Positions 1,375-57,216 of a DNA stretch of 64,000 nucleotides are shown here, in pieces. Under the pieces are notes generated by a model, which had not been told where the DNA came from, did not search any database, and saw only the letters and a list, made by a program, of their open reading frames with translations. Source of the DNA: Amaurobius ferox (taxonomy: Eukaryota > Arthropoda > Arachnida > Araneae > Amaurobiidae); contig OX578146.1 of the NCBI GenBank assembly GCA_951213105.1, positions 57,109,069 to 57,173,068 on the forward strand. The letters are read 5' to 3'. Position 1 is the stretch's first letter. Every line of letters starts with the position of its first letter. Made by a program: the position numbers and the translations under genes.

Positions 1375-1756
1375 TGTTGTTGAGATCCAGACCGTCCGAC
1401 TTACCAGAAAGGTGTAAAGTAACTGTTTGGACGACAGGGAGCCGCCCAATTTAGACCGGAACCCAGTGGGGGAGGCATCCACAGGGACCGTACCCACCTT
1501 CCCCTACCACCAACCTCTCGGAAGGACTTACAGACCCACATGTTTAACGTGATCGTACTCCGCATGAACACGGCGGCAGTTGTGGCAGCATGCAAATCCA
1601 GCGCTCAACCCACCGGGCTACCGCGCCGGAAATGTGCCAACAGCACGCGGTGTTCCCAGATGGTCACCCACACAAGTACTAACCACGCCCGATGCTGCCT
1701 GACTTCGGTGATCTAACGAGAACCGGTGCTTTCAGAACACGGTACGGCCGTTGGTT
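1375..1756 (-). mobile_element. Composite SINE: 5S rRNA head fused to tRNA-derived SINE body
   Basis: Read on the minus strand, the insert begins at the 5' end of a 5S rRNA-like sequence (1755-1636). It passes through a 4-6 nt joint into a tRNA-like A box (GCGCGGTAGCCC), then the same body as the SINE at 20673-20964, and ends in a CAACAACA-type tail. A 14-bp duplication ACACTATTCGATGC flanks it on both sides (1361-1374 and 1757-1770). The whole 5S+SINE unit therefore inserted as one reverse-transcribed RNA. The segment carrying the tRNA B box in the other copy is missing here, so transcription would have to come from the 5S internal control region. 5S-headed SINEs (SINE3-type) are known in some animals; whether this is such a family or a one-off chimera cannot be told from one copy. 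Confidence 0.88.
1636..1755 (-). rRNA. 5S rRNA-derived sequence (retroposed)
   Basis: About 120 nt on the minus strand match 5S rRNA along its whole length: the CCAACGGCC start, the GTTCTCGTTAGATCACCGAAG block, the internal control region GTTAGTACTTGTGTGGGTGACC (in parts), and the GGGAACACCGCG...TGTTGGC end that pairs with the start. Several substitutions relative to the usual animal 5S are visible, for example TGTG for GGAT in the C-box. It lies inside a TSD-flanked SINE insertion, so it is best treated as a 5S-derived retrosequence and not as a unit of the 5S gene cluster. It might still be transcribed. Confidence 0.85.
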
Positions 1757-7846: not shown

Positions 7847-8860
7847 AGGCCGTCCCAAGTCTCCGAGGCCGTCCCAATCTCTTGTGTTGATATGACGTCC
7901 TTTTTTGAGCTCTTCCGTTTTCGTTTCGTAATCGCGTAAATTTTTATGTTGAGAAATTAAAAGTTGTGAATCAACAATGTCCTACCCAAGAGCTACAATC
8001 TGATACCTTGTTTTCCGAAAAATGCCTCGCCAGTGGTGAGCTATCGTTTGTTTTGTTTTCAAATTGTTCTAAATGTTCATCGAAACCATTGTAATGGGAA
8101 TTCTGAAGATAGTGACAAAATCGGTCACTGAATACATCTGTAAAACCAGTTAAATATGATAATTTTGTTATTACAAGTACATATATATAATAATCTATAT
8201 CTTTACTATGTTTATTGAATGTATTTTTAAACCCTGGATCAGTTTTTTAATGTGTAAACTTAGTTTTAAAATCCCATGTTTTCCTATCATTGCAATGATC
8301 TACATGTACTACTGCGAATCCCCCCTTTGAATTGACAATGTATCTATCCCATGACACTAGCAGTGCACACACCTGGCATAAAATGGAAAATACCACCTCT
8401 ACATACGTTCAGCTGTCATTTTCTTCACTCGTTTGGAAAAATTATTCCTCTTCTTCCCAGTTTTTCCCATGTTATTTTCGTTTTTTAATTTTAATTTTTG
8501 TTTAAATTTATTAAATCCTTATCGGTTCGACACATTGAGTCTGATTGCCAATACCTAAATGTTAAAAAAGTTTGAAAACTCTGGCACTACGACCTTAAAT
8601 AATCTTTTGTGGCAACAAAACTGACATTTTTAACCTGAAAACCTAGCCTGAAATCTATTCATAGCCTACCTTATAATCACTGGAAAATTGTCTTCCCACA
8701 GCATTTCTCATTTCAGCTTCATGGCGCATCATTTTGCTTTTTTGCTTGTCGTACCTATCCTTTTATTCAAATGTTATTTTTAAAATGTTTAATGATTTTT
8801 TTTCACAGCATTTATTATCTATTGAATTATATTTACAAACTTTGAAAAAATATACATATA
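7847..8860 (+). promoter_or_regulatory. LINE 5' UTR (expected internal promoter)
   Basis: About 1 kb lies between the 5' junction and the ORF1 start and contains no ORF of note. Non-LTR elements of this group normally carry an internal Pol II promoter here, which is family knowledge. I cannot point to a clear core element. At the 5' junction the 19 bp TCTCCGAGGCCGTCCCAAG are repeated (7841-7859 and 7860-7878). Confidence 0.5.
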
Positions 8861-10657
8861 ATGGAATATTCTCCATCATCCATGGACTTTCCCAACCTTC
8901 CTCCTGTGGTTCTACTCACTCCAAAAATACCAACCTCTAAATCAACAAAACTTTCAAAAATGCCAGCTCGAGAGATTATTCGACAGACTTCATCAGACAT
9001 AACAACCGACACTGCTTTGCCAGTCGTTCAATCTCCCCTACCATCTACATCAGCAAATTGTTCAGACAAAGAAACCACGGATACCACACCATCAGTTACC
9101 ACATCTTCTAATAAAACATCTCCTGAGCTTCAACCGAAACCTCCTCGTAACCTCTCCAATCCGACCAAACTCCAACCCACGGTCAAATTTGTGGATTTCA
9201 AGTCCTCAACTTCAAACCTCTCATACTCCGATGTTGCTGCTGGTTCCCCTTCAATATTTTTTCCTTTCATCTCTTCAATTTCAGCTCCTTCTATTACACC
9301 TTCTAAAACCCAGTTTACACTGTTCTCTCATCCCAAAAAGGATGACAAAAAGCTGAAATCTTCTTCACAACCTATCATAACTACTAATGAAGATTCAACC
9401 CAAGATCAACATCAACAAACTCAATCACCACTACCTATATTGCCACGAGAAGAAACTGACGACGACATTTCAATTGCAACTACGGAACTTATGGATGATA
9501 ACACTGATTACAGAAACTGCTTCCTGTTAAAGGTCCAGAGATTCTCTAACCAAATATCAAACTACCTTACAAGATATGTGAAGCCAAATGCAACTCAGAC
9601 CAAGTATTTTAATGAGAAGATGCAGACACTCAGAGACTCTTGTCTCCTCTTTGAAAAACAGATCCAGGATCCTCCTCCAACTCTCAATCCAGATTCCTCC
9701 AATATAATCAAAGACTTGAAGACCTCATTTGACCATAGCATTTCTAACCTTCATGAATCCATTGACCACAGCCTACAAAATTTTTCTCTCAACCTTTCCC
9801 ATGATTTACCAACTATGATCAATGAATCTGTCAAGAAACACCTGTCAGAACTTTCTTCATCTGGCCTCCTCCCATCTGCAACCTCTTCCACAAAAATGCC
9901 TTCAACTAAACCATCTTTTGCAACAATATTACTAAAGGGAAAAGACCGTGCCAGGAATAACATACAACTTAAAGAGGATCTACGTCTACTTAAATGTCCT
10001 CCAGAAGCATGCATAAAGAATGTCTCCACATTAAGCAACGGTACTTTGAAAATTACATGCCAGAACAGCGATGTTGATGCCCTACTACCTAAATTTATCA
10101 ATTCAGATATTGGGGACAAATTTAACATACAAAAACCACCACCAAGAACCCAAACCTTGATTATGTTTAATGTCCCGGAACCTTTTACAGCGGAAAATGT
10201 TAAACAGCTCATTCTACGTAGCCTCCCAGGCGATAGTACACAAGAACTACGGATTATACGCAACTTCAAAAGCAGAACAGGAAGCCTGAACTGGGTCTTC
10301 CTTGTTGACTTTGCTTCAGCCAAACTGCTTCTGGACCTGGGAAAGGTCTACCACCATTTCCATTATTTTCAGATAAAACGTTACATCGCCTTGCAAATCT
10401 GTTACCGTTGTCAAGGTTTCGGACATACTGCCAATTACTGCACTCGGACGGCTGGCAACTGCAGTAATTGTACCAAATCTGGTCACAACTTTAAAAACTG
10501 CCCTTCAACCAAAACAGTCTGTGTAAACTGTAACACGGCAATTCATGACGAACCGGATCTTGGCTGGAGAACGGATCATAATGCGAGGGACCGCTCTCGC
10601 TGTAAGGCAATGCAAAGAGAACTTTCTCGGATTCGAGAATTGCAGCGTAAGGGATAG
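8861..10657 (+). CDS. LINE ORF1, gag-like zinc-knuckle protein
   Basis: This encodes 598 aa from an ATG. The first ~190 residues are Ser/Thr/Pro-rich and likely disordered. The middle (about 220-330) is polar and helical, with a region rich in Asp/Asn. Residues about 425-500 (RTQTLIMFNVP...) resemble the PRE_C2HC/RRM-like domain of arthropod gag-like ORF1 proteins. Zinc knuckles follow: CYRCQGFGHTANYC at 514-527, CSNCTKSGHNFKNC at 534-547, and a third Cys-rich motif starting CVNC near 553. The tail is basic. By family, the product binds element RNA and forms the RNP needed for target-primed reverse transcription. ORF2 starts 226 nt after its stop. The long antisense ORF at 9751-10323 is a shadow of this gene. 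Confidence 0.88.
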   Translation: MEYSPSSMDFPNLPPVVLLTPKIPTSKSTKLSKMPAREIIRQTSSDITTDTALPVVQSPLPSTSANCSDKETTDTTPSVTTSSNKTSPELQPKPPRNLSNPTKLQPTVKFVDFKSSTSNLSYSDVAAGSPSIFFPFISSISAPSITPSKTQFTLFSHPKKDDKKLKSSSQPIITTNEDSTQDQHQQTQSPLPILPREETDDDISIATTELMDDNTDYRNCFLLKVQRFSNQISNYLTRYVKPNATQTKYFNEKMQTLRDSCLLFEKQIQDPPPTLNPDSSNIIKDLKTSFDHSISNLHESIDHSLQNFSLNLSHDLPTMINESVKKHLSELSSSGLLPSATSSTKMPSTKPSFATILLKGKDRARNNIQLKEDLRLLKCPPEACIKNVSTLSNGTLKITCQNSDVDALLPKFINSDIGDKFNIQKPPPRTQTLIMFNVPEPFTAENVKQLILRSLPGDSTQELRIIRNFKSRTGSLNWVFLVDFASAKLLLDLGKVYHHFHYFQIKRYIALQICYRCQGFGHTANYCTRTAGNCSNCTKSGHNFKNCPSTKTVCVNCNTAIHDEPDLGWRTDHNARDRSRCKAMQRELSRIRELQRKG

Positions 10658-10883
10658 GTGAACTATTACTTATCTTCTTTGACTGTCTCATCTTGCTTAT
10701 TTTCATGTTTTGCAATGTGTTTGCTTTCCGTGTCTTGCTCTATGTGTGTTTTTGTATTGCATCCTATCGTATTGTAAATAATTTTGTGCTTTTATCATCA
10801 TGTTCCCATTGTTTTTCCTGTGATGCTCCCCTCTCCCTGCTTGCCCCCTTCCCCTTATCAACTCTCTGGCATTGATTATTACC

Positions 10884-13800
10884 ATGGTACTTACAGCTCT
10901 GCAAATCAACGCTAACCACTCTCTAGCAGCACATAACCATCTGTTGCAATTCGCTATTGAAAAGAATTTTGATTTTATTGGGCTACAAGAGCCATATATA
11001 TCTTCAGTTAATATACTTTCTCCCCCCAAGGGCATTAAACAATATTTTTCTCTCTCTAAAAAAGCCGGAATTATTATCATTAATGAAAATTTAAAATCAG
11101 TGCTTAAATACCAATCAGAATCCTTTGTTCTTGTTGAACTCCTACTCCCTGATGGTCTCTCACTTAACTTAATTTCCCTTTATTTTCCCCCTCATGACTC
11201 CGTCCCTGATCTACTTCTGGAATTCTCCTCCTTGGATATTTTATCTTCACACTTTTTAATTTTGGGTGATTTCAATGCCAGAGCCTTGATGTGGGGATAC
11301 TCTTTTATTGATCACCGGGGTTACAATATTATTGACTTTTGTCTCGCAAATAACTTAATAGTGGTTAATGACCCTAAACGTGGTCCAACATTCTGCTCTC
11401 ATTCAGGCAAAGGTTTCCCTGATTTAACTCTTGTTTCTTTTGGTTTCTTTGACTATATTCAAAATTGGGAGATTCTCTCGAATGACTCATTTAGTGACCA
11501 CAAATTTATCAAAATAACTCTCAACCTTGACCCTCCCTCCTGTACTAACTTTTATTTAAAAACCAATTATAAACTTGGCAAATTTATCCATAACTTTAAA
11601 TCTTACATTCCTCATTTATCCTCTGAAATTGACAAAATCACAGACCCCCTTTCCCTTGACCTTTTTATCCAAGAACTTATTGAAATCACCTCCTCCTGTG
11701 CATTTAAACACATTAAAAAGAAAAAAGCTACTAAACGTCCAAAACTCCTCTGGTGGAACAATGAATTGGCAAAATTCAGAAATTTTGTTACTGCACTCTC
11801 CAAGAGAGTCAAATCACTCGAGAGAATCTCCGCTCCTACAGAAGAAATTTCTGAGGCAAAGATTAAATATAAGTTGAACCGTGCAAAATTCAAAAAACTC
11901 TTAAACAAGGCCAAAAGGGACTCCTGGAACAAATTTTGTACTAACTGCTCTTCTAAATTCGGTTCACAATTTAAATTTGCTTTTCAAAAGGTTAACAAAT
12001 TTAATAACATTAATATACAATTTCCTGACGAAATAAACCTCGATTATGGTTCAAAAATTCAACGTCTTTTGGACCACACTTTTAAAAATGATAGCACTTT
12101 CACGGGTTTTCCCCTTTTGAATACCTCTCCTGAGGGTCTGGGTCTCGTCTCTGATGAAGAGCTCTCACTGGTTTTTAACAATCTCCCTAACGGCAAATCC
12201 CCGGGTCTTGACCTCTTAGACTTCAATACTTGGAAATCTTTACAAAAAACCTTCCCATTTATCTTCACAAAAATTTTTAACTTAAGTTTTCAATTTTGCT
12301 ACTTTCCTAATTGCCTTAGAAACGCTAAAGTCCTCTTCTTAAACAAACCGGGCAAAGACCCTTCACTCCTTGCATCTTATCGCCCAATATGCCTACTACC
12401 CACCCTTGGTAAAATTATAGAAAAACTGTTTATTAATAAATTGAACCACTGGCTTGCCACCAGTGAGGCTCTTCATCCTTTACAATTCGGTTTCAGAGAA
12501 CTTACAAGCTGCGAAGACGCAACGATCAGACTAGTCAACACTATCAAAAACTTTAAACCAGGTAACTTTGTCTCCCTCACCACGGTGGACATCTGCGGGG
12601 CCTTTGATTCACTAAACTGGAACATCCTACCTCTTGCCCTTCAGGCTATTGCTCTTCCCCCTGTTTTTCAAAAATTTATATTTTCATATTTAGACTCCCG
12701 CCAAATCTCCTACTCAGATGGTATACATACTACAACAAAAAATATTACATCCGGTGCTCCACAGGGATCTGTTCTTTCCCCTGTGTTATGGAACATTTAT
12801 TTCAATAAGATTCTCCTTTTAAATAATGACAACTTTTATTTACAGGCCTTTGCGGATGATCTCGCCGTGGTGACAAAAGGTGACTCCCTTTCTGCAGTTA
12901 CTTTACAAACCAATTTGATTCTAACCATGATTTCTGCCTCTCTAGATTCTCTTCGTCTCAAATCTTCCCCTGAAAAGTCACACTGTATTATTTTTAATAA
13001 GACCCGTTCGAAGCGCCGTCAAAACCCTCGAATCAAACTTTATAATAAACCCATTAAAATAACTCGACACCTTAAATACCTTGGAATCCTGATAGACGAC
13101 AACCTTACATGGAGCCCTCATGTTTTTTACCTCAAAGAGAAATGCTTTAAGCTCTCTTCTACTTTTGGGAAAATCTCGGGTAATAACTGGGGTATTAATA
13201 AAGCATTACTAAAAATCTGGTACTTGGCAGTGATAGAAAAGATTATTACATATGGCTCTGGGGTTTGGGGGGGTAACTTAACTGGGGAACAAACCAATAA
13301 ACTTCTCTCTCTACAGAGGATTTTCCTTTTGAAAATTGCAAACGGATTTAGAACAACTTCAAGCATTTCCCTTTACTCTATTACAGGTATCCCACCCATC
13401 AACCTTGTTATACTTAATTTACACAAAAAATTTAACTTCTGGAGAAATCGTATTGACCTCTTTCAAGATCCTTCCCTCCCACCCCCGTCCCTTTTTGATT
13501 CCAACTTCCCTCCTTCCCTTGTACCTCCCTCTCATCGCATTATTAATCTACCTGTTTCTGATCCCTCCACCTTCTCGGATATTAATATTTTTACTGACGG
13601 ATCCAAATTTAATAACAACACAGGATTCTCCATTTGTATATACAATAGGGACACCCTGGAAGAAACACACCTTTTTAAACTTGAAGCTGGGAATACAGTC
13701 TTTCAGGCTGAAATCTCTGCCATCAAATTTGCCATGCAATGGGCACTTGACAAAAACCTAAAAGTTAATATATTTACTGACAGCTTATCTTCCATCTTGG

Positions 13801-14408
13801 CGCTAAAATCAAATAAAAATAAATCTAAATACCTTCATGATCTAAAACTTATTGCTCTTTCGGCTTCGAAATTCATCAATCTTCAATGGGTTAAGGCCCA
13901 CGCAGGTACATTGGGAAATGAAGTCGCGGACGCCCTTGCCAAAACGGCAACTACTTCTGGCACTCCCCTTTTGGTCCCCTTTCCATATTCTTTTCTTTCC
14001 CACTCCTGTAAAACATTCCTACTTCACTCCTGGCAATCTGAACTTAACACATATAGATCACCACGCACCCACGACCCTTCTCGTGTCCTATCCTTTCTCC
14101 CCTTGGTTAACCCCCGTTTCCAAATTTTTAACAAATTTATTATATACTTTATTACCGGTCATGGACCATTCCTTGACTACCTCTTTTACTTTAAGCTTAA
14201 ATCTACATCAAACTGTCCCTGCAACGCCTATGGTGATGCAGATCATTATATTTTCTCCTGCCCCTTTACAAAAGACTCCCACCTGAAAAAACCTCCCCAA
14301 GGATTCTCAGCGACTTGGTTTTCCAATGTTTGCACAAACAAGATACTGTTAAATCGACTGAAAGACTGTATTCTCGGGGCTAGAGAGATTACCAATAGGG
14401 TCCGATGA
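10884..14408 (+). CDS. LINE ORF2: endonuclease, reverse transcriptase, RNase H
   Basis: This encodes 1174 aa from the first ATG, in good context (ACCATGG); the frame is open 12 nt further upstream without an ATG. Domains in order: an apurinic-type endonuclease (GDFNA at residue 128, catalytic SDH at 204-206); reverse transcriptase (motif A VDICGAFDS with Asp 569, motif B SGAPQGSVLSPVLW, motif C FADD at 656-659); RNase H with the acidic set Asp 905 (FTDGS), Glu 943 (QAEISA), Asp 966 (FTDS) and Asp 1016 (EVADALAK); and a C-terminal Cys/His motif CPCNAYGDADHYIFSC near 1111. Every catalytic residue expected for the family is present. The protein nicks target DNA and copies element RNA from the 3' end. 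Shadow ORFs in other frames are ignored. Confidence 0.93.
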   Translation: MVLTALQINANHSLAAHNHLLQFAIEKNFDFIGLQEPYISSVNILSPPKGIKQYFSLSKKAGIIIINENLKSVLKYQSESFVLVELLLPDGLSLNLISLYFPPHDSVPDLLLEFSSLDILSSHFLILGDFNARALMWGYSFIDHRGYNIIDFCLANNLIVVNDPKRGPTFCSHSGKGFPDLTLVSFGFFDYIQNWEILSNDSFSDHKFIKITLNLDPPSCTNFYLKTNYKLGKFIHNFKSYIPHLSSEIDKITDPLSLDLFIQELIEITSSCAFKHIKKKKATKRPKLLWWNNELAKFRNFVTALSKRVKSLERISAPTEEISEAKIKYKLNRAKFKKLLNKAKRDSWNKFCTNCSSKFGSQFKFAFQKVNKFNNINIQFPDEINLDYGSKIQRLLDHTFKNDSTFTGFPLLNTSPEGLGLVSDEELSLVFNNLPNGKSPGLDLLDFNTWKSLQKTFPFIFTKIFNLSFQFCYFPNCLRNAKVLFLNKPGKDPSLLASYRPICLLPTLGKIIEKLFINKLNHWLATSEALHPLQFGFRELTSCEDATIRLVNTIKNFKPGNFVSLTTVDICGAFDSLNWNILPLALQAIALPPVFQKFIFSYLDSRQISYSDGIHTTTKNITSGAPQGSVLSPVLWNIYFNKILLLNNDNFYLQAFADDLAVVTKGDSLSAVTLQTNLILTMISASLDSLRLKSSPEKSHCIIFNKTRSKRRQNPRIKLYNKPIKITRHLKYLGILIDDNLTWSPHVFYLKEKCFKLSSTFGKISGNNWGINKALLKIWYLAVIEKIITYGSGVWGGNLTGEQTNKLLSLQRIFLLKIANGFRTTSSISLYSITGIPPINLVILNLHKKFNFWRNRIDLFQDPSLPPPSLFDSNFPPSLVPPSHRIINLPVSDPSTFSDINIFTDGSKFNNNTGFSICIYNRDTLEETHLFKLEAGNTVFQAEISAIKFAMQWALDKNLKVNIFTDSLSSILALKSNKNKSKYLHDLKLIALSASKFINLQWVKAHAGTLGNEVADALAKTATTSGTPLLVPFPYSFLSHSCKTFLLHSWQSELNTYRSPRTHDPSRVLSFLPLVNPRFQIFNKFIIYFITGHGPFLDYLFYFKLKSTSNCPCNAYGDADHYIFSCPFTKDSHLKKPPQGFSATWFSNVCTNKILLNRLKDCILGAREITNRVR

Positions 14409-20490: not shown

Positions 20491-20547
20491 CACTAACATA
20501 CTCACAAAAACATACATACACTGACATACATACACAAACAAGTATCA

Positions 20548-20619
20548 TCCCACGTGGTCTAGTGGTTAGGATACCTGGCTCTCACCCAGGAGGCCCGGGT
20601 TCGATTCCCGGCGTGGGAA
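20548..20619 (+). tRNA. tRNA-Glu (CTC), structurally intact, within a retroposed unit
   Basis: It is 72 nt with a perfect 7-bp acceptor stem (TCCCACG/CGTGGGA), A box TGGTCTAGTGG, anticodon stem CCTGG/CCAGG around loop CTCTCAC (anticodon CTC), T stem CCGGG/CCCGG with loop TTCGATT, and discriminator A. A TTTT Pol III terminator follows at 20627. The sequence is very close to the usual animal tRNA-Glu. It lies within a TSD-flanked retroposed unit, so it is a retro-copy of a tRNA gene, but nothing in it would prevent transcription or folding. Confidence 0.93.
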
Positions 20620-20964
20620 GCAACACTTTTAAATACACCTACTCATCGGAATTAATATATTTATATTATTTTGCGGGCGCGGTAGCCCATTGGTTAGCGC
20701 GCTGGAGTTGCACTCGGTAGGCCCGGGTTTGATTCCAGCCACTGCCAAAACTGCCGCCGTGTTCATGCGGAGTACGATCACGTTAAACATGTGGGTCCGA
20801 AAGTCCTTCCGAGTGGTTGGTGGTAGGGGAAGGAGGGTACGGTCCCTGTGGATGCCTCCCCCACTGGGTTCCGGTCTGAATTGGGTGGCACTTCCCGACC
20901 GTCCAAACAGTTACCTTACACCTTTCTGGTAGGTCGGACGGTCTGGGTTTCAACATCAACAACA
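20548..20964 (+). mobile_element. Composite SINE: tRNA-Glu head, 53-bp linker, tRNA-derived SINE body
   Basis: The insert is flanked by the 14-bp duplication ACAAACAAGTATCA (20534-20547 and 20965-20978). It starts exactly at the first base of a tRNA-Glu (20548-20619), continues through 53 bp that include the tRNA's own TTTT terminator (20627-20630), and then into a SINE body at 20673. That body has an A box (TAGCCCATTGG), a B box (GGTTTGATTCC), a conserved core (GCCGCCGTGTTCATGCGG onward) and a CAACAACAACAAAC tail. The core and tail are shared with the 5S-headed copy at 1375-1756 and the fragment at 56534-56573. The target was a CA-rich tract of a family A arm. Confidence 0.88.
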
Positions 20965-20978
20965 ACAAACAAGTATCA

Positions 20979-42330: not shown

Positions 42331-45319
42331 GTGTCGAGAGTCGTACAGGACAGAGCACCAGGCGCGAAGCGCCTTTAATCTCCAGTTTCAATATGCGGTT
42401 CTTATCGTCAAACTGTGGCATCAGTTCTGTGACCCTAATTGGAGGTTCGAGGTTTTTATTTACTACTTTTTATTATTTGTCCTAGTTCCTAGTGTGGCAG
42501 TTTGTTGAACATTTAGAGTTTAAGCAGTTTGGGGGGTTGATGCAGATCTAAGGGTTGTCTAGCATTTTGGCAACTTAGAGTTTTGAACATTAGTCGCGAG
42601 ATTTATTTAATATCAGATGTTTGAGGTGGGATTTTTTATTCCGATTATCGATGTTTAGAACAGCGCGGGGTCTCTTACGAGATTTGGCCTTGCGATGATC
42701 ATAGTCATGCAGATTGAATAACAGTTCATTTGAAACGGATGGCAAATTTTTGTAAAATTTAAGCGCTAGCTTTTTAATTTGGGCTCTAACAGTTTTTATT
42801 TTGAAGTCATTCCTAATTACCGAGTTTCTTAAGTACCTGGGAGCTTTCCTGATAATCCGTAGGATTTTGTTTTGTTTTGTCTCTAGGAGGTCTATTGTAG
42901 TTTTACAGGCATATCCCCATACGGGTGCTGCATACAGCATTCCCGGGCGGATGACCGATTTATAAATTAACAGTTTGTTTTGATGACTGAGATTTCCGTT
43001 TCCTATCATTGGGTATAAGGCTCCTGCAGTTATATACGCTTTTTTGATTAAGTTCGTTCCGTGCTGTTTCCAGGTTAGGTGGGAATCTAGCGTTACACCT
43101 AGGTATTTAGTAGATTTTTCCGCGCGTAGGGCATGGTTGTTTATGTACAGTGGCGGCGGAGGTTTATGTTTCCTCTAGAAATAAATCCAATGACATTTAT
43201 TGGGGTTTACGTTTATTCGCCATTTTTCCAGCCAAGTTTGGAGTATGTCTAAGTGTTGTTGTAGCTGTCTGTGCATTACTGAAACATAGGGGTGTTTTGC
43301 AAGTATCGCACTGTCTGCATAGAGTGCCAGCTCTGTGTTTGGAGTCCTGGGGATGTCGTTCAGGTATATGTTAAAGAGTGTCGGGCCCAGGATAGAACCT
43401 TGCGTTACACTACTTTTAATGAGCTTGGGTGTAGATAAGTTACCTCCTACTCTGACTTGAAAGTGTCTGTTATTTAAGTATGAGATTAAAAGTTTGACAA
43501 GAGCGTCAGGGACTTTTAAAGTGATCAATTTGTGCGCTAATCTACAGTGCCATACTTTATCAAAGGCTTTTTGTATGTCCAGAAATATCGCAGCTGTGGA
43601 TGTCCTGTTATTGAGACCAGAAGATATGTACTCTACCACTCTCAGCAATTGATGAGTGGTGGAGTGCTTTGGCCGAAAACCAAACTGATCCGGAATGATA
43701 ATGTTATTCTCTCTAAGGTGCGTGTTCAGTCTCTTAAGAATTATTTTTTCAGTAATTTTACTAAGTGTCGGTAGTAAGCTAATTGGTCTGCAGTTGGCTG
43801 GAATTGTGGCATCCTCACCTGGCTTCGGGATTGTTATGATTATGGCTTCCTTCCATTCTTTAGGAAAATAGTTTAGTTTCAATATTTTATTTATTAAGAT
43901 AGTCAATTAACATATTACGTTTAGGGGTAGGTTTTTAACCGCAATATTTCTGATTTTGTCGTGCCCTGGGCTTTTTCGGTGTTTGAGGTTTTTGATAATT
44001 TCTACTATCTTCTGCGGGGTGGCTGGGTTAATCTCAGCCGTTATTGGGGAATTCCTGATGTTATTTAAAGTTTGTCTAACCATTCTTAGGGTGTCCTGAC
44101 ACATTAGATCGTGGTTTGGTTGGAATTGTTTTTCATAATGGCTTGCGATCGCCTCGGCTTTTTTCTCGTCTGAGTACGCGAGTTTAGCGCCATCTATTAG
44201 AGGCGGGAGCTTAATTTGAGGTTTCCTGAGTCTTTTTCCGAATTTCCAGAGCGATACGTCTTCTGGGCTAAGGGATTCAATCATTTCTTTATACTGTTGC
44301 TGTTTTTCTGCGACAATTTTTTCCCTGACTTTGCACGTGAGTCTGGTAAGCTCCCTTTTAAGGGCGGGGTCTGTGTTAGCCTGCCATGTCTTACGTATTC
44401 TATTTCTTTGCCTGACTAATTGTTTGACATGGTGGGAAAGCGTGGGCATTTTTGGAGACTCACGATTTGTTATTGCAGAGGCAATTGCTCTCTTGATTTC
44501 TGTTGTGAGTGTGTGCGTAGCACAGTCAATATCCGTCGTGCTCATTATATTAGGTATTGCTAAGTGCGGCTCAAAGATTGCTCTTTTGAATACTTCCCAG
44601 TTGACCCTCTCTTGTCCCAAAGAGGCTGGAAGAGGTTTGTTCAGGTCGAATGTCACCAGTACCGGTAGATAATCCGATTCGAATTCATCCAGGGTACTAA
44701 TAGTGTGAGCGTAATCTATGTTTCGCGTTAGGACAAAGTCTATGAATGTGCCGTTGGCGTCTGAGAAGCAGGTTGGTGTCGACGGTGCAGTAATGTTAGT
44801 GTTTGTGGTGTTCAGCAGTCTGTGTATCTGTGTACCGCGTGCATTGGCTCTCCTACAGCCCCACGCTCGGTGGTGCGCGTTGAAGTCGCCTGAGAGTATC
44901 GTGTTTGGATATCGCGAGAAAAGCAGTTCCAGTTGCGCAGCTACGTCTACTCTACTCATATTTTTGACATATGTTGAGGTTAGGATAAACGGGCTAGTAT
45001 TATTAATTTTAATTTTTATGCTAGTATTTTCTATACCTTGCAGATTTATGCTTTTTAGTTCCTCGTGAGGAATACTTCTTTTAATGTATATTGCTGTTCC
45101 TCCATGGGGCGTTCTAGCATTAGTATTTGAGCCAAGATTATGATAGCCAGAGTAGTTGGCTACGTTTATTTTTTTACTTTCTCTAACTCCAGTTTCCTGA
45201 ATTAATACGGCGTCTACATCATTTTCGTTTACATAGTTCCTAAGTTCATTTATTCTTGGAGATATGCCGTCCGCATTCCAAAATATTATTTGAAAGGATT
45301 CCTTTTGGGATCTAGCCAT
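42331..45319 (-). mobile_element. Jockey-like non-LTR retrotransposon, 5'-truncated, decayed
   Basis: It covers ORF2 on the minus strand plus a 3' UTR of up to ~260 bp; the exact 3' boundary is uncertain. No ORF1 is found upstream of 45319, where a decayed Tc1 transposase begins within 110 bp, so the copy is 5'-truncated. It has no RNase H, unlike the LINE at 7847-15013, which is the usual difference between Jockey and I-type elements. Confidence 0.8.
42590..45319 (-). pseudogene. Jockey-like ORF2 (endonuclease-RT), two in-frame stops
   Basis: One frame of about 909 codons runs from an ATG at 45319, with just two interruptions: TAA at 43907-43909 and TAG at 43175-43177. The frame is otherwise kept. 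The endonuclease domain has GDFNAHHRAWG at residue 144, but the catalytic SDH reads SDY at 215-217. The RT has motif A FLDIQKAFDKVWH, motif B SVTQGSILGPTLF (Pro to Thr in the usual PQG) and motif C YADS where YADD is normal, consistent with loss of one codon. The C-terminus (RPGMLYAAPVWGYA, thumb region) is typical of Jockey. Three separate active-site or nonsense defects make it inactive. The apparent plus-strand ORFs here are shadows. Confidence 0.9.
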
Positions 45320-45429
45320 GACGGGTTGATTCTCACCGTTACTTTATATATTAGTGTGAATTAAATAGTTTATTATATAATATATGCTTTTGAAACATTA
45401 ACGGTATATAAACACCACAGACAAAATAT

Positions 45430-56044: not shown

Positions 56045-57216
56045 TTACATTAGGCATCCTTGTTTACGGGGTCCAGTAACTATCATGTGACAGTTTGTTC
56101 CAGGCCATTGTTTCCAAACATCTTTTCTAGTTGCGTTTGTTGAGTGGTATATGTCTAATACATCGTATTGGTTGTCTTTCGGAACTGCATTGTATAATGG
56201 GAAGAATCTGACATCGTTTATGTCTACCAGAACTGTCGAGGTGTATGTTATGAGTACCATGAAGTGAATGTTATTCAGTTGATTTGTTTGTGAATATAAT
56301 GACATGGGGCGTACAAGACAAGATGGTGCTGGGGATTTATAATTGTCTAGACTTGAGGTGGTGTAATTGTAATTTGCTCTGTCTTCTGTTAGTCGTTAGC
56401 CTCCGTCCCATCTACCTTTGTACCATGCTGGGGTTTCTAGTCCAACTATTCCACTGGCTGGTTTTAATCCGTGTCTCCATTTGATTTCTTCAGCATTCCA
56501 TGTGTGTTCGAATGTACCACTTGGTAGGAGTGTTGTTGTTGTTGATACCCAGACCGTCCGACCTACCAGAAAGTTGGTAGGAGTGTGTTCCAATTCTATG
56601 AGTCCATTAGTCCATATTATGAGTCCATATTATATAGTTATGAGTCCATATTTGTGTATTGTTTTGCCATGGCTTTATAGGCGTCGTTAAGGATATCGGG
56701 TTGAATTTTTGCATTTTCACAAATGATATTTGTTAGTGTGGCTGTTCCAGCTTCGCAATTGTTTGAAGACATGTTTGCATTAGGAAGAGTGGCTTCATAT
56801 AATTTTTGGATGGGTAATATCATTCCTTTGTCGATGAAAGTTTCTAAGTACGGTTGTGTTTGATAGAGTACTTTTGGTACTATTGCTCCTCCTGTTGTTC
56901 CGGTCGTTAATTCTATTGGTATGATGTGATGTAATACGAATCCACATTTAATGGGTGACCATCTTCTCGCGAAAGAATTCAATCCTTGCCAGTCTGATGG
57001 TTTCATTGAGGCACATATGTGTTAATAGGATATATCCGACCATCCCTGTTTCATTTTATTGTCGAATTCGTCTGGCATTTTAATGTAATGTCTTAGTGTT
57101 CTGTTGTATTTCATGCTGAGTTGTTTTGTAGCTGTTTGGTTCATGTTCGTTCCTTGTGGTTCGCTTGGAGAAGCATGGGCGTGTGCGTCCATTGGTGTTG
57201 AAATGTCTTGGGACAT
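56045..57216 (-). pseudogene. Endogenous parvovirus/densovirus-like capsid (VP) gene, broken
   Basis: The minus-strand reading begins at an ATG at 57216. Conserved blocks include a KYNRTLRHYIK start, GWSDI, MKPSDWQGLNSFARRWSPIK, a FVLHHIIPIE strand followed by a TGTTGG loop, KVLYQTQPYLETFIDKG, and later WRHGLKP and WYKGRWDGG. This order (the W..I lead-in, the DWQ.L....RW motif, a strand with IIP, a TTGG loop) fits the jelly-roll VP of arthropod-type parvoviruses; the genus is not decided. No NS1 or phospholipase region is seen. Damage: an in-frame stop at 57022, a stop at 56638 next to a tripled ATGAGTCCATA-like repeat (56599-56650), a SINE fragment at 56534-56573, and at least one frameshift. 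It is an old copy and cannot be expressed as a whole capsid protein. Confidence 0.6.
56534..56573 (-). mobile_element. 5'-truncated SINE (40 bp of 3' end) with 13-bp TSD
   Basis: On the minus strand this is the last 40 bp of the SINE body at 20673-20964: TTTCTGGTAGGTCGGACGG, then GTCTGGGTATCAACAACAACA (in parts). It is flanked by TTGGTAGGAGTGT (56521-56533 and 56574-56586). It adds 53 bp to the capsid pseudogene and shifts its frame. Confidence 0.88.

Follow-up and report, generated by a model that had tools for sequence, protein, structure and literature searches.

The window, by which we mean the whole 64,000-nucleotide stretch of Amaurobius ferox DNA that was analysed, contains a tRNA-Glu(CTC), its 53-nt 3' flank and a young, full-length SINE, which together form one unit inside a 14-bp target-site duplication. 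The parts of this unit are as follows.

20534..20547, no strand: left target-site duplication ACAAACAAGTATCA, read directly from the sequence and backed by shuffles and by the C|ACA context and common duplication length of the SINE family
20548..20619, plus strand: intact tRNA-Glu(CTC), called by ARAGORN and by Rfam model RF00005 (68.4 bits)
20620..20672, plus strand: 53-nt 3' flank of the tRNA, interpreted as a putative pre-tRNA trailer from direct reading and assembly searches
20673..20964 (about), plus strand: full-length tRNA-derived SINE copy with a CAA tail, defined by family matches and alignment
20965..20978, no strand: right target-site duplication ACAAACAAGTATCA, read directly and backed by shuffles

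The tRNA starts at base 1, right after the duplication, and all 72 of its positions agree with those of several tRNA-Glu genes in this genome (L080, L082-L085). Two T4 runs occur in the flank, at 20627-20630 and 20669-20672, the second of which lies at the SINE joint, 2 nt from GGGCGCGG. The joint reads ATTATTTT|GC|GGGCGCGG, with GGGCGCGG beginning at 20675; two sequences of different origin stand end to end within a single target-site duplication. The GC at 20673-20674 may be part of the 5' end of the SINE RNA. An extra GC or TGC between the duplication and GGGC is also found in 7 of the 20 ordinary copies that have extra letters, a count favoured by a query that itself began with GC, and the window T4 may therefore meet a complete SINE 5' end.

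The duplication is perfect, and its 14-mer occurs exactly twice within the 64-kb window, at 20534 and 20965. Directly 5' of where the SINE begins, no duplication is found; the single one detected has tRNA, flank and SINE between its copies. When both 60-nt flanks were shuffled by a dinucleotide-Markov procedure, a shared word of at least 14 nt appeared in 9 of 20,000 shuffles. A resident tRNA-Glu gene behind which a SINE later inserted, with an enclosing duplication arising by chance, would account for the intact tRNA and for the T4 that follows it as in a normal gene. We regard such a pair of unrelated events as very improbable, given the rarity of such a word in shuffles, the family-typical context and length of the duplication, the SINE's lack of a duplication at its own 5' end, and the seven further loci, described below, that share the layout. 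A chance duplication was rejected on the shuffles together with the insertion pattern of the family. The proposal of the earlier note that the duplication encloses one retroposed unit is thus borne out.

To place the window copy within its family, we searched the 3.56-Gb assembly (G000), in which the window lies on contig 15, with the tRNA-derived SINE; scoring of the best 40 of 1113 candidates yielded 46 matches, of which 41 are near full length. Duplications were tallied over 76 distinct matches of at least 200 bp, counting the 71 with a full start and dropping the other five. A duplication of at least 9 bp abuts the SINE start in 66 of these 71 copies. The family's cut context is C|ACA, a preference for AC to which overlap with the CAA tail may contribute, and its commonest duplication lengths are 14 and 15 bp; the window duplication fits both context and length. 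The five non-abutting copies comprise the window unit, whose left duplication copy lies 125-139 bp further out, L067 and L055, which seem masked by adjacent copies, and L037 and L056, in which the abutting test detected no duplication. L056 carries a T4 before its start and was rejected as a chimera, as no Pol III gene was seen by eye in the 500 nt upstream. In an alignment of 72 rows (the 71 copies, window included, plus L109), the window SINE differs from the majority sequence at 3 of 275 positions, and 15 of the 72 rows match the majority without difference. The SINE family is young, within a sample itself skewed to young copies by searches that favour nearest relatives (best 40 of 1113 candidates). 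A second, partial copy lies elsewhere in the window.

56531..56576, minus strand: 5'-truncated tail of the same SINE family, 46 bp, identified by match and by eye, with its duplication read by eye

Several arrangements of the family were observed in passing. At L045, L055, L061, L067, L077 and L109, neighbouring SINE copies or short tails follow one another in head-to-tail order, separated by one copy of the target sequence, looking as if one site was reused repeatedly. Head-to-head pairs a few dozen bases apart occur at L012 and at G000:C8:12882367-12882979 (L034, L053), and G000:C23:13922595-13925285 holds a cluster of five near-identical partial SINE-SINE joints, perhaps a tandem array. Two groups of LINE-like open frames were seen by eye in the window, at 8846-14408 (plus strand) and 42590-45343 (minus strand); the sequence behind both groups has no likeness to the SINE tail that is obvious by eye.

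The window also contains a SINE copy with a different Pol III head, which the earlier note had taken, together with the tRNA-Glu unit, as a sign that the family repeatedly carries along upstream Pol III genes.

1375..1756, minus strand: 5S-headed SINE copy, with 5S at 1635-1755 (87.5 bits, Rfam)

The copy is real, its 5S looks arthropod-like, and its order is 5S, a tRNA head lacking the B-box region, and then the same body and tail. A Blast comparison of the 5S head with the fetched loci revealed 5S-headed copies of the same body at L072, L075 and L061 and partial ones at L055 and L097. The 5S-headed copies have the joint GTTGGCACATTTC|GGGCGCGG or close variants of it, and their tRNA heads have lost the same region. 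The window copy is thus a member of a multicopy 5S-headed subfamily, which rules it out as an independent fresh event. Separately, at G000:C14:26046203, C19:88610114 and C19:96395833, the start of a tRNA-headed SINE is joined to a second SINE start, with a 5S end standing between the two starts in two of the three pieces; these are possible SINE-to-SINE jumps. At L087 (about 1370-1572), a 5S lies 17 nt upstream of a tRNA-Glu; neither SINE nor duplication was found there, and the locus was dropped from the set of fusions described below.

The 5S-headed subfamily provides a precedent for a fixed head, and the tRNA-Glu could in principle be the head of another such subfamily. The earlier note had named the same head on most copies as the observation that would count against its reading, and the assembly searches brought no such refutation. 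With as many as 3 mismatches allowed, 30 nt of the flank matched the 3.56-Gb assembly at the window only. When 20610-20700, from the end of the tRNA across the flank into the start of the SINE, served as query, the window itself was the one full match among the best 40 of 74 candidates, the other matches covering the SINE part plus at most 23 nt of flank. With a query of tRNA, flank and SINE start, the window was recovered together with 39 matches that stop at query position 72-84, which is the tRNA end or around the first T-run (best 40 of 444 candidates). Across the 78 loci L001-L078, the only tRNA calls were the window's own, in three overlapping loci. Among the candidates scored, the assembly yielded no tRNA-Glu gene with the window's 53-nt flank, neither as a donor nor as a SINE-bearing parent, although a missing match in such searches does not prove rarity. 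Since the flank was found once only and the same head was not seen on many copies, the window tRNA is not a subfamily head; we consider the chance that it is one to be negligible, even with the limited number of candidates scored.

Seven further fusions were found elsewhere in the genome, making eight with the window, in each of which a pre-tRNA is joined to a SINE or to a truncated SINE tail. By tRNA, the seven are Asp, Ala, three Glu, and, by eye, Lys and one more that was not assigned.

L088: duplication 15/15; leader AGT, tRNA-Glu, GATGCTTTT, then a truncated tail
L092: duplication 14/14; GTT, tRNA-Glu-like, TATTT, C, then a tail
L097: duplication 12/13, imperfect; TTAAC, tRNA-Glu, GACCACATTTTTTT, ATTA, then an older full SINE
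L109: duplication 13/14, imperfect; GAG-tRNA-Asp(GTC)-GATCATTT-A-GGGCGCGG, with an intact tRNA
L125: duplication 16/16; AC-tRNA-Ala-ACGCCTGTACCTTTT, joined to a truncated tail
L123: tRNA 3' part only, type not assigned, joined to a tail, by eye
L124: tRNA-Lys 3' part only, joined to a tail, by eye

ARAGORN backs six whole tRNAs, namely Glu (window, L088, L097), Glu-like (L092), Asp (L109) and Ala (L125); it calls the L092 tRNA Lys owing to the anticodon CTT, the sequence being otherwise tRNA-Glu-like. On L123 and L124, ARAGORN called no tRNA, and both were recognised by eye. The L124 duplication sits in CA-rich simple sequence, where a script check gave no confirmation and a longer shared word exists elsewhere in the locus. 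A whole SINE with its 5' end is present in three fusions; in the other five of the eight, the partner at the joint is a tail that lacks the SINE 5' end.

These fusions were chosen by eye from searches of best-scoring or pattern-limited matches, and eight is accordingly a minimum. Screening of 29 non-window tRNA-Glu loci, with 10 further matches left out, gave three of them (L088, L092 and L097). A pattern scan for a tRNA B box at most about 70 nt before the exact SINE start hit 31 places, with none for the reversed-pattern control; besides the window, four of these sequences were examined (L109-L112) and the remaining 26 were assessed by eye on the matching stretch. L110-L112 were rejected as chimeras: they have no tRNA, and L111 and L112 have ordinary duplications, with none seen in L110. 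A looser start pattern requiring GGGG matched 38 places, with a recognisable tRNA by eye in L097 only. The conserved-tail pattern matched 24 places (control 0), 17 of them judged by eye only; the seven examined comprised three fusions (L123, L124, L125) and four ordinary truncated insertions (L126-L129), which were rejected as chimeras and in which a B-box-like word lies inside or at the edge of the duplication (L126, L127, L129) or upstream of it (L128). The tail-B pattern gave one match, not a tRNA by eye, and missed L088 because its B box carries a substitution. In 21 of the 31 B-box places, by eye, the SINE adjoins the end of another tRNA-headed SINE family (..TTCTTTACA), which seems to provide its target site.

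The earlier note had interpreted the base-1 start of the window tRNA as the mark of an RNA whose 5' end RNase P had cut before reverse transcription. Such a cut is possible at the window; it is not the rule, as the five other whole-tRNA fusions start 2-5 nt before base 1. Normal tRNA maturation includes intermediates in which the 5' end has been cut and the trailer is still on. A leader with the same final letters as the duplication would look alike, which makes the base-1 start ambiguous: the cause may be either an RNase P cut or a short leader masked by the duplication.

Two comparisons with ordinary copies bear on how the joints were made, both conceived after the cases had been seen. Of the 8 chimeras, 7 (scored by hand) have a T-run of at least three that ends at most 2 nt from the joint, compared with 10 of 70 ordinary SINE starts (Fisher 5e-5), a contrast that is overstated because tRNA genes have T-runs just downstream anyway; the RNA 3' end at the joint is predicted from this run. 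The exception is L097, whose joint lies 4 nt beyond a T7. The target-site AC at 12-18 nt before the joint was found in 67 of 70 ordinary copies; among the 8 chimeras, 2 have it (Fisher 8.5e-6), namely L097 and L125, the latter with its AC at 15 nt. The window unit has no AC 12-18 nt before its joint, and hence no parental target-site mark.

The second comparison weighs on read-through, or 5' transduction, in which a SINE lying 53 bp downstream of a tRNA-Glu gene would have been transcribed with it into one Pol III RNA, trimmed at its 5' end by RNase P and retroposed. The contiguity of the window unit is as expected from such a transcript, its first terminator consists of merely four T, and at L097 the joint matches a canonical 14-bp target site (C|ACATTTTTTTATTA), the trace expected from a parent SINE that had inserted next to a tRNA gene. 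At the window itself, the parental mark carried by nearly all ordinary copies is missing, the single assembly searched yielded no parent locus (nor any donor), and the sibling L109 breaks inside its donor's terminator. With the AC mark in only two of the eight fusions, read-through may explain L097 and is unlikely for the whole set. For the window unit we judge it unlikely, and the read-through transcript of the earlier note gives way to the capture of a separate RNA as the more probable source, L097 alone looking compatible with the former.

Evidence for separate RNAs comes from donor-type genes in the same genome. Among 10 of 41 other matches examined, two tRNA-Asp genes on contig 14 (L113 and L114) match L109 at 100% over the GAG leader, the tRNA and GATCATTT. 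Both read GAG-tRNA-GATCATTTTTATTTC, and their flank continues TTATTTC where L109 continues A-GGGCGCGG. The L109 copy thus consists of a 3-nt leader, tRNA-Asp and a trailer broken inside the T5 terminator of the donor, and no SINE was seen in 60 nt of the L113 and L114 3' flanks. The nearest gene to the L125 tRNA, L130, reads AAC-tRNA-ATGCTTGTACATTTTTAATA and is a relative, with, by eye, 71 of 72 tRNA positions and 12 of 15 trailer positions shared; its leader AAC and trailer ATGCTTGTACATTTTT compare with (A)AC and ACGCCTGTACCTTTTT in L125, and no SINE was seen in 78 nt of its 3' flank. In both L109 and L125, the captured stretch, which begins some 3 nt ahead of base 1 and extends to a T-run, corresponds to a predicted primary Pol III transcript, its start and stop being deduced from the sequence. 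A break in or at the terminator, combined with donor flanks in which no SINE was seen, points to fusion of two RNAs. The idea that the SINE takes whichever Pol III gene lies upstream is thus less well supported: capture does recur with other tRNAs, but the SINE-free donor flanks (60 and 78 nt) and the joints in or at terminators argue against adjacency. Separate donors were found for both halves of L109; for the window unit they were found for the SINE and for the tRNA-Glu, the latter not with the window's flank. Because no tRNA-Glu gene with the 53-nt flank was found in the assembly, we infer rather than observe the fusion of two RNAs at the window. A separate array at G000:C4:128513972-128560648 contains many tRNA-Glu genes interspersed with tRNA-Gln genes.

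We consider it probable that the window unit is a single chimeric retroposition, in which a LINE reverse transcriptase jumped from SINE RNA to a separate pre-tRNA. Target-primed reverse transcription by the LINE enzyme would start on the SINE RNA at a C|ACA site and proceed to the 5' end of that RNA. The enzyme would then jump to a second, separate RNA from Pol III, a pre-tRNA-Glu that was either unprocessed or already processed at its 5' end; it would land on the oligo-U at the 3' end of this RNA and copy the RNA to its 5' end, after which the cDNA would integrate with the 14-bp duplication. At the window, transcription of the pre-tRNA would have passed the first T4 and ended at the second, about 40 nt further. 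The captured RNA was presumably made by Pol III, and the window unit, by analogy, probably took the same route as its better-documented siblings. L123 and L124, which retain only the 3' part of a tRNA, fit an enzyme that jumped to the 3' end of the tRNA and then halted partway along it.

The same sense orientation and end-to-end joints would also result if a cellular ligase had joined the pre-tRNA 3' end to the SINE RNA 5' end before reverse transcription, and ligation or template switching has been proposed for U6/LINE-1 and other sense chimeras in the available part of one report (PMC13174262). Ligation would need broken or shorter RNAs as partners in the five of eight joints that lack the SINE 5' end, and, although sequence alone would not separate the two, we think it distinctly unlikely. 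Template jumping rather than RNA ligation probably made the joint.

Related chimeras are known from other systems. In the U6 snRNA/LINE and U6/SINE chimeric retrogenes, as described in the accessible portion of the source, a Pol III RNA with oligo-U stands in sense upstream of a LINE or SINE (AnolisSINE2 and Mon-1 being the SINE partners) within one duplication, and the U-stretch is among the candidate reasons for the preference for U6 (PMC4476161). Unlike these, the window unit and its siblings capture pre-tRNAs of several kinds with leader and trailer, and their intact tRNAs retain an internal promoter (compare PMC4476161, as far as its available text goes). PittSINE is proposed to have arisen from TguSINE1 by template switching to tRNA-Asp, which makes it comparable in both the proposed mechanism and its result, a SINE with a new tRNA head; that case is, in the part of the paper available, deduced from two established families and is a head exchange, whereas ours consist of single insertions with a visible joint and, once, donor-type genes, and in three cases add a new tRNA before a whole SINE (PMC5729268). 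The moth 5S/tRNA chimera HaSE3, for which template switching was likewise proposed, resembles the A. ferox 5S subfamily in carrying a 5S head on a body common to a tRNA-headed SINE, and differs from the pre-tRNA fusions in being a family rather than fresh events and, in the available text, in having no pre-tRNA (PMC3272025). In tRNA/LINE-1 chimeras, the tRNA is co-inserted with a LINE in one duplication, with ligation offered as an alternative; the accessible text describes typically half-length tRNAs, mostly antisense and tied by the authors to twin priming, whereas here the tRNA is in sense, whole in 6 of 8 cases and joined at its trailer (PMC13174262). In the available part of a paper on hagfish SINEs, template switching is mentioned as a possible way in which chimeric SINEs arise (PMC7245038).

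Among the matches listed in a search of titles and abstract openings of the open-access literature, we found no report of a full pre-tRNA with its trailer joined to a SINE. Features that appear to be new within that literature are the processing state in which the RNA was captured, the placement of the joint at the terminator, the range of tRNAs involved and the presence of donor-type genes in the same genome.

In the literature found, the gain or exchange of Pol III heads by SINEs has so far been deduced from families that were already established. Single insertions in this genome expose the first step, including which RNA was taken, its processing state and the joining point. More tentatively, we speculate that the partner LINE enzyme prefers the oligo-U ends of fresh, unprocessed Pol III transcripts, such that any pre-tRNA may be fused before a SINE or a broken tail; this could be an ongoing engine that supplies SINE promoters, gives rise to new SINE families, including the 5S-headed one, and spreads intact tRNA genes with terminators genome-wide. 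If general, the process would be testable by a genome tally comparing joints with pre-tRNA ends. It would also constitute a route for intact tRNA genes to new sites, with a bearing on tRNA gene evolution and annotation. The fusions may thus show how SINEs gain new promoters and scatter tRNA genes.
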